From Natronorubrum halophilum (lineage in GTDB: Archaea; Halobacteriota; Halobacteria; Halobacteriales; Natrialbaceae): a stretch of 64,000 bases of DNA. The translations under genes were made by a program, and so were the position numbers. Every line of letters starts with the position of its first letter. Position 1 is the stretch's first letter. The notes below the pieces were generated by a model. The model was not told the origin of the DNA. It ran no database searches and saw only the letters and a program-made list of their open reading frames with translations. The stretch covers positions 310,001 to 374,000 of the forward strand of contig NZ_QQTY01000001.1 of assembly GCF_003670115.1 (NCBI RefSeq), read 5' to 3'. This document shows positions 62,411-64,000 of the stretch, piece by piece.

Positions 62411-63412
62411 TTACGATCCGGATGCTCCCTTTGCGAGTTGTGCGCGAAAGACCGTCTCGAATCCCTCGAGGTACGCGCCGATATCGACCGAATCGATCTC
62501 GTCGATGAACTGCGCGGCCTCGGTGTACTCGCTGCGCCAGCGATCGACGAAGTACTCTTCGATACCGGACTCGCGGATCTTCGTGACGATCGGTTCGATG
62601 GGGGTCTCGGACGAACGCGTTCGGATCGCCCGCAGTTCATCGACCGAGAGGAGGTCGGTCTCGAACGCGCGAACGACGACCCCCGAACTGTAGTCGCCCT
62701 CCGCGAGCTCGCGCTCCCAGGTTGCGATCCAGTTGCCGATGCGCGCCATCCGCTGGCAGCGGGCAACCACCCGCCGGACGGCCGAGAGGTCGGTCGAATC
62801 GAACGCGGACGCGTTCGCAAGGTCGATCGTGGCGAAGACGAACACCAGCATGTTGTGGGCGTCGTACGTCCAGAGTTCGCGTTCGGAGGCGAGACCCGGG
62901 TGGTGGGCCAGCAGTGCGGAGTAGTCGACCGCCTGGAGGGCCTGTCGCAGATCGAATCGGAGCAGGTCCGCGAACTCGTCGGCGCGCGCTCCAGCGTCAT
63001 AGAGCTCCAGAAACTGCGACCAGAGATCGCGCTGGAATCGGACGTACTCGCCGTCGACGTCGTCTCGAGTCGGATCGGCGTGCTGGTGCTCGAAGGGGAC
63101 GTTCCGAAGTTCCGCAAACGTCGCGCGGTCGCCGTATCGCTCGGCGACGTCGTCGGCGACGGTGATGAACATCATCGCGAGTATCTTCGCCTCGCAAGCG
63201 CGTCGTGTTCGCTCCGGCTCAACGCAGGACAGTCTGATCTCGGGTTCTATCCGGTGGAACCAGTGCCAGAGCGTCCGGTCTCTGTCCGCAATGCGTTCGT
63301 CGTACGCATCGGCCAGCGGCACGACGTTCTCGGGAAGCGGTCGGGCAGCGACGTCAGCGAACGGGTTCGTCTTCCCGTCGAGAGCGGGAACGCGGGGATC
63401 AGGTCGCGGCAT
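62411..63412 (-). CDS. Putative class I terpene synthase-like protein
   Basis: 333 residues, all-helical. The start is ATG 63412, 27 bp downstream of a TATA element (63435-63443 on the minus strand); an upstream TTG is not needed. Two metal motifs of class I terpenoid synthases are present. The first is Asp-rich: D87-D88-V-A-E91 in FITVADDVAERYGDR. The second is an NSE/DTE-type motif: N227-x3-T231-x3-E235 in RIGNWIATWERELAEGDYSS, about 140 residues later. In known enzymes they read DDxxD/E and ND-x-x-S-x-x-x-E, and both chelate three Mg2+ for the prenyl diphosphate. The length is bacterial-like. The second motif has W for the usual D. Product and partners are unknown. Confidence 0.65.
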   Translation of the reverse strand: MPRPDPRVPALDGKTNPFADVAARPLPENVVPLADAYDERIADRDRTLWHWFHRIEPEIRLSCVEPERTRRACEAKILAMMFITVADDVAERYGDRATFAELRNVPFEHQHADPTRDDVDGEYVRFQRDLWSQFLELYDAGARADEFADLLRFDLRQALQAVDYSALLAHHPGLASERELWTYDAHNMLVFVFATIDLANASAFDSTDLSAVRRVVARCQRMARIGNWIATWERELAEGDYSSGVVVRAFETDLLSVDELRAIRTRSSETPIEPIVTKIRESGIEEYFVDRWRSEYTEAAQFIDEIDSVDIGAYLEGFETVFRAQLAKGASGS

Positions 63413-63434: not shown

Positions 63435-63443
63435 AAATTTAAG
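63435..63443 (-). promoter_or_regulatory. TATA box of the terpene synthase-like gene
   Basis: On the minus strand CTTAAATTT (complement of aaatttaag) is centred 27 bp upstream of the ATG at 63412. This is leaderless spacing and supports that start. Confidence 0.5.
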
Positions 63444-63560
63444 CAATTATAACTATGTGTTCTGTTATGGTGTTCGCGAGGATTACGTTACCGACAGTTC
63501 GCTGACCGTCGACGCCCGCGGACGAACACTGCTTTGGGACTGGCCGCGAATCCCTCGAGT

Positions 63561-64000
63561 ATGCACTCCGACGAGGAACGCGACGCCGGCGTTCATACGC
63601 TACCGATCACGGTCGAGTACGGCGACGGAGAGATCACGATTACGCCGACGGTCGTCGAGACCGGGCGCGGACTCGTCCTGATCGACGTCGGGCCGCGAGG
63701 GGCGACCGACGCCATCCGAACGCATCTCACCTCGCTCGGGTACGCGCTCGAGGATATCTGGCTCGTCGTCCTGACGCACCACGACGGCGACCACGCCGGC
63801 GGCCTCGCGGAATTGCTTGAGCGGGTCGACGCGGTCGTCGCAACACACCGGGACGAAGCGCCGTTTCTCACGGGCGAGCGCGATCCGATCAAGAGCACCG
63901 GCGGCGACCGCTATCCGCCGGTCGCCGTGGATCTGGAACTCACCGGCGGCGTTCGAATTCCGACGCTCGCGGGACCGATGGCGGTCGTCGACACGCCGGG
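63561..64000 (+). CDS. Metallo-beta-lactamase-fold hydrolase (partial)
   Basis: 146 codons from ATG 63561 running off the right edge without a stop. Residues 15-60 form the first MBL strands (VVETGRGLVLIDVGPRGATD). The metal motif is THHDGDHAGGL near residue 73: H-H-D-x-D-H, a variant of the usual H-x-H-x-D-H in which the second His position is Asp. This form occurs in some MBL proteins. TLAGPMAVVDTPG at the edge leads into the next metal-binding loop. The substrate cannot be judged from this half. Divergent from the terpene synthase-like gene. Confidence 0.85.
   Translation, partial: MHSDEERDAGVHTLPITVEYGDGEITITPTVVETGRGLVLIDVGPRGATDAIRTHLTSLGYALEDIWLVVLTHHDGDHAGGLAELLERVDAVVATHRDEAPFLTGERDPIKSTGGDRYPPVAVDLELTGGVRIPTLAGPMAVVDTP

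Follow-up and report, generated by a model that had tools for sequence, protein, structure and literature searches.

We propose that a protein encoded in the 64,000-nucleotide stretch of Natronorubrum halophilum DNA analysed here (the window) is likely to be a divergent, non-canonical class I terpene synthase, which would convert a prenyl diphosphate into a terpene, most likely a cyclic one. The gene lies on the minus strand at 62411-63412 and runs from ATG to stop, encoding 333 amino acids; an alternative in-frame start, a TTG at 63436, would give a product of 341 amino acids. The original prediction had described a 333-residue protein with D87-D-V-A-E91, N227/T231/E235 and a subsequent GDYSSGVV, and its coordinates and residue positions were exact; the strand, which it left unstated, is minus. 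Comparison of the gene with close relatives gave a dN/dS of 0.16-0.28, the differences among these relatives peaked at codon position 3, and the encoded protein is acidic (18% Asp plus Glu), as in haloarchaea. Therefore, the gene is real and under purifying selection. An A/T-rich TATA-like box, CTTAAATTT, was found at 63435-63443 on the minus strand, with its centre 27 nt upstream of the ATG. A TATA-type box at this distance is expected for a leaderless haloarchaeal transcript, and the element is accordingly a putative leaderless promoter. No significant hairpin was found in the promoter region of the gene.

Both metal motifs of class I terpene synthases were observed in the protein. The Asp-rich motif is D87-D-V-A-E91 (63140-63154, minus strand), and 140 residues downstream of it is the NSE/DTE-type triad N227/T231/E235, contained in N227-WIA-T231-WER-E235 (NWxxTWxRE; 62708-62734, minus strand). 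This is the combination of DDxx[D/E] and N-x3-[S/T]-x3-E, at the usual spacing, of the microbial synthases of family PF19086. Two further features are shared with these enzymes: the G-[DE]-x2-[NS] element after the NSE box, here GDYSSGVV (62675-62698, minus strand), which aligns with the G-E/D-x-x-N-x-V of bacterial terpene synthases, and a Y-x2-G-[FML] helix near the C-terminus. The motif pair by itself was rejected as proof of a terpene synthase, since 2-3% of unrelated local proteins have it. Using the pattern DDxx[DE] followed by [ND]x3[ST]x3E at 100-180 amino acids, the pair occurred in 1.9% of shuffles of the 333-residue protein and by chance in 15 of 458 other local proteins near the homologues (2 of 458 when only N was allowed at the first position of the second motif), and because of these frequencies the pair alone is weak evidence.

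The pair is meaningful because of its conservation across 91 unique haloarchaeal homologues. D87 was found in 88 and D88 in all 91 of them, and position 91 is Glu in 80 and Asp in 11. N227, W228, W232, R234, E235 and D240 are each present in 91 of 91, and position 231 is Thr in 87 and Ser in four. The metal residues thus stay invariant or nearly so down to about 26% identity. Also invariant are a family-specific N-terminal signature, R44...W49-x-W51 (63260-63283, minus strand; 91/91), and the residues D197, R213 and R224. Most of the methanogen members keep the metal motifs as well, in the forms DDSCD and N-x3-TW-x-[RK]E. It had been noted originally that the second motif has Trp where Asp is usual, and that metal binding could be modified as a result. 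W228 does replace the second residue of the NSE box; however, the metal ligands of this box are N, S/T and E, and since the second residue is no ligand, W228 does not by itself imply altered metal binding. It is instead a family signature, invariant in the haloarchaeal set and occupied by Thr, Ala, Cys or Trp in the methanogen members.

In a Pfam search, only terpene-synthase models matched the 333-residue protein. The best was PF19086 (Terpene_syn_C_2; E 6.5e-5), with 23.2 bits against a curated cut-off of 23.7, 0.5 bit short, and the score was 24.7 bits when the frame neighbours of the protein were included. In the HMM search suggested in the original prediction, the score is thus borderline for the window protein itself, but 45 of 63 aligned family members matched PF19086 at E<0.01. 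No match to PF00348 or PF00494 was found in the Pfam search at E up to 1. Squalene/phytoene synthases and trans-prenyltransferases share the class I fold superfamily with the window protein but have two DDxxD motifs, whereas its second motif is of the NSE type, so the earlier statement that the protein is neither a squalene/phytoene synthase nor a linear prenyltransferase holds. A profile-profile alignment (hhalign) against ten synthases of the bacterial type from plasmid records placed DD on DD and NWIATWERE on NDLFSYQRE with a P value of 3.7e-4, at a probability of only 37%, and kept the Y-x2-G helix in register together with the metal motifs. No PDB chain was matched by sequence, whether the protein or the family profile served as the query, and an NCBIfam search with the protein returned nothing. 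Altogether, the profile evidence agrees with a terpene synthase, though weakly.

The predicted structure points to the class I terpenoid fold. AlphaFold2 on a 63-row alignment gave a model with a pLDDT of 94.5 and a pTM of 0.92, and 41 of its 42 Foldseek matches in the PDB with E<1e-3 were class I terpene synthases, the remaining one being an archaeal GGPP synthase. Aristolochene, T-muurolol and hydropyrene synthases and VenA were among the matches, with a Foldseek probability of 1.00. The model has the all-alpha class I terpenoid synthase fold, as do PF19086 enzymes such as the aristolochene, T-muurolol and hydropyrene synthases and the N-domain of geosmin synthase, and the structure prediction that had been proposed as a check, like the residue conservation in the 91 homologues, thus supported the class I terpene cyclase reading. 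Identity in the structural alignments with microbial class I terpene synthases was about 10-17%, and the TM-scores were moderate (0.5-0.6), suggesting that the catalytic pocket may differ from those of known synthases. The class I terpene synthase fold was also predicted, at a pLDDT of 88.4, for a methanogen relative (family f13) that no Pfam model matches. In a viral fold library, the predicted structure of the window protein matched nothing at E<=1e-3.

Compared with the PF19086 synthases, the haloarchaeal family differs at several positions expected to handle the diphosphate. In canonical microbial synthases, a sensor Arg is located about 46 amino acids before the NSE box. In the ten bacterial-type synthases, the diphosphate-sensor Arg within YIxxRR (R183 of that set) is invariant, as is a C-terminal RY pair. 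The corresponding site in the window protein is Y183-DAH-N187-M188 (62849-62866, minus strand), where no Arg or Lys is conserved; across positions 170-199, no conserved sensor Arg or Lys was found, the highest count at any position being 33 of 91. Likewise, no conserved C-terminal RY pair was found in the haloarchaeal family, and the chain ends shortly past the Y-x2-G helix. The Lys/Arg preceding the NSE Glu is retained (R234). By these alignments, the family is non-canonical: neither the sensor Arg nor the RY pair is conserved, NW stands where canonical synthases have ND, it has its own invariant Arg/Trp set (R44, W49, W51, R213 and R224, together with D197), and its Pfam scores are borderline or sub-threshold. 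It is the missing conserved pyrophosphate-sensor Arg and RY pair, and not W228, that are the real departures, and they would offer a natural test of alternative set-ups for diphosphate ionisation.

These departures also bear on the idea that the gene encodes an ordinary terpene cyclase of the canonical bacterial type and was recently obtained from bacteria. Such an enzyme would have the same fold and the same two metal boxes, as observed; however, it would not be expected to lack the sensor Arg and the RY pair, and a very long branch separates the family from the bacterial-type synthases in a quick tree, which carries a long-branch warning and from which only this separation, not the branching order, was used. 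In addition, the surroundings of the gene in Natrialbaceae are a stable set of housekeeping genes, and true bacterial-type synthases in haloarchaea look different. The latter, found in Halocatena, Actinarchaeum and one Natrialbaceae genome (G231), belong to the same superfamily but, unlike the window family, score 136-170 bits with PF19086 and have the canonical ND, the sensor Arg and the RY pair. Recent transfer from bacteria is disfavoured by the long branch and the motifs, and we regard it as extremely improbable.

The bacterial-type synthases form a second, unrelated haloarchaeal terpene synthase group (L114, NZ_CP071308.1 60160-73047; L115, NZ_CP109980.1; G183:C3; G231:C28, C56), which was likely gained from bacteria. 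In Actinarchaeum halophilum, which is a filamentous haloarchaeon, and in Halocatena marina, their genes lie next to those of polyprenyl synthetases; the Halocatena enzyme also carries an SRPBCC/Polyketide_cyc2 domain fused to its N-terminus. With these synthases included, PF19086 matches above the cut-off were present in 48 of 381 haloarchaeal genomes.

Based on the predicted fold and the conserved residues, we infer a mechanism in which two to three Mg2+ ions held by D87/D88/E91 and N227/T231/E235 would bind the diphosphate of the prenyl substrate. The substrate would be FPP, GGPP or GFPP from the cell's own polyprenyl synthases, a supply that is possible since the same genome encodes three of them. 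Removal of the diphosphate would yield an allylic cation, which the helix-bundle pocket would guide to a terpene hydrocarbon or alcohol, most likely a cyclic one. The highly conserved R44, K76, R213, R224 and R234 would probably hold the diphosphate in lieu of the sensor Arg and the RY pair.

The same fold and metal chemistry could serve an enzyme that is not a cyclase, either by hydrolysing the diphosphate to a linear alcohol of the nerolidol or geranyllinalool type, or by transferring the prenyl cation to a non-isoprenoid acceptor in the manner of DabA-type enzymes, which are N-prenyltransferases of the terpene-synthase fold. Fold and motifs cannot separate cyclases from such enzymes, and the fold search with the methanogen relative found both DabA (6vkz) and a linalool/nerolidol synthase (5nx4); however, the best matches were cyclases in the models of both the window protein and that relative. 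The pocket could close in another way, given the lack of the sensor Arg and the RY pair, yet the RY pair is still present in a bacterial-type linalool synthase. We therefore consider a non-cyclase unlikely.

The window locus lies inside a housekeeping stretch (EF-1beta, L21e, Rpb4, KsgA), an order that recurs in Natrialbaceae. Its neighbours, both conserved in Natrialbaceae, are a divergent gene for a metallo-beta-lactamase-fold hydrolase (63534-64000, plus strand, extending beyond the window; 243 amino acids in locus L142) and a convergent gene for a PLP enzyme of the cystathionine gamma-synthase/lyase type (PF01053; 61214-62374, plus strand). The window gene is without an adjacent regulator, like most Natrialbaceae members. 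Across the family, in contrast, a regulator gene of the Bat/HalOD1, PAS-kinase or FilR1 type adjoins the family gene in 43 of 73 loci and in 23 of 39 genera, and this adjacency is what is new here. Among genes three to four places away, such regulators numbered 9 of 238 (Fisher p ~1e-12, a value inflated by relatedness). The regulators in families other than Natrialbaceae are Bat-type PAS/GAF/HTH_10 proteins with HalOD1 partners, PAS histidine kinases and FilR1-like winged-helix proteins.

The neighbourhood survey used our own gene-calling heuristic based on acidic composition, and single neighbour assignments can therefore be wrong. The trend was matched by Pfam counts on the same gene calls and by independent RefSeq annotation. 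PAS_9 was found in 19 and BAT in 10 of 70 upstream neighbours, and both are outside the 25 commonest families of 71 more distant genes. In the RefSeq annotation, Bat and HalOD1 genes are divergent from the family gene in Halobellus limi, a PAS protein and HalOD1 are encoded directly downstream of it in Halobaculum, and a PAS kinase lies downstream of it in Salinigranum. A PAS/HisKA_2 kinase is encoded just upstream, on the same strand, in most Methanosarcinaceae-like loci. Since the association recurs with different regulators and gene orders, it suggests that the family product is made under regulation.

Adjacency to PAS, GAF, Bat, HalOD1 and FilR1 regulators would also suit a non-catalytic member of the fold that binds a ligand and partners with the sensor kinases and Bat-type regulators encoded nearby, and one divergent methanogen member (L112) has no second motif. 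However, loss of a metal ligand is rare or absent among the 91 haloarchaeal proteins, although a dead sensor would not need these residues, and most Natrialbaceae members, the window gene included, have no regulator beside them, so that we judge such a role very unlikely. For an active synthase, the adjacency would fit a regulated specialised metabolite as the product. We tentatively raise the possibility, itself rather unlikely, that a terpenoid common to haloarchaea and some methanogens is produced as needed under dedicated sensory control, its divergent synthase being linked to Bat/PAS-GAF, HalOD1, FilR1 or histidine-kinase regulators and its product serving as a signal, a membrane modifier or an agent of chemical ecology. 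If so, this would be a regulated archaeal terpenoid system in which the diphosphate is bound at a site that differs from that of the canonical synthases, and the light/oxygen-type regulators that recur beside the gene offer a concrete hint at when production would take place.

Other genes were noted beside the methanogen members. In L107-L111 and L113, whose genomes (family f13) are probably Methanosarcina and relatives (Methanosarcinaceae), the family gene directly follows that of a PAS/HisKA_2 histidine kinase in the same orientation; the L108 member, the only one of this group scanned, is invisible to Pfam. The downstream genes encode a SAM methyltransferase in L111, an MFS transporter in L108 and an MBL-fold protein in L109 and L110. 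The members in L100 and L101 (G599, G410) adjoin PAS histidine kinases and a DUF92 membrane protein (PF01940, the family of phytyl-phosphate kinases). Prenyl synthase or P450 genes are common beside bacterial terpene cyclases; none was seen adjacent in the flanks of the family genes.

Of 391 Halobacteria genomes, 120, from 40 of 86 genera, contained a relative, and relatives also occur in some members of the same phylum that, from their phylum, families and gene content, would be methanogens. The distribution is patchy, with a member in four of eight genomes of the window's own genus. A plasmid search returned haloarchaeal relatives only, which are annotated as hypothetical protein, and a scan of genome contigs gave only five, all close and from Natrialbaceae; no relatives were found in the viral contigs searched. 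If active, the family would place a terpene synthase, automatically annotated as hypothetical, in about one third of sampled haloarchaeal genomes, and archaeal terpenoids beyond carotenoids and membrane lipids would be largely unexplored.

The original prediction called such enzymes in haloarchaea little described, which is now too strong. Active archaeal terpene synthases, characterised in yeast, have been reported by Samusevich et al. (bioRxiv 10.1101/2024.01.29.577750), as cited by MARTS-DB (PMC12797696), and archaeal enzymes are also mentioned in PMC13235557; the novelty of the present family is limited by these reports. The enzymes of the preprint may include members of the window family, and the regulator adjacency and the missing sensor Arg and RY pair may be described there too. 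A search of the open-access literature found no paper on the window family.

Two further observations concern copy number and decay. The methanogen copy in L112 (G478) is divergent or decayed, having lost the second metal motif, and has a methyltransferase gene adjacent to it. Three divergent paralogues of the family in one haloarchaeal genome, noted under G199 (L060, L061 and L062) and G121, hint at several products per organism.
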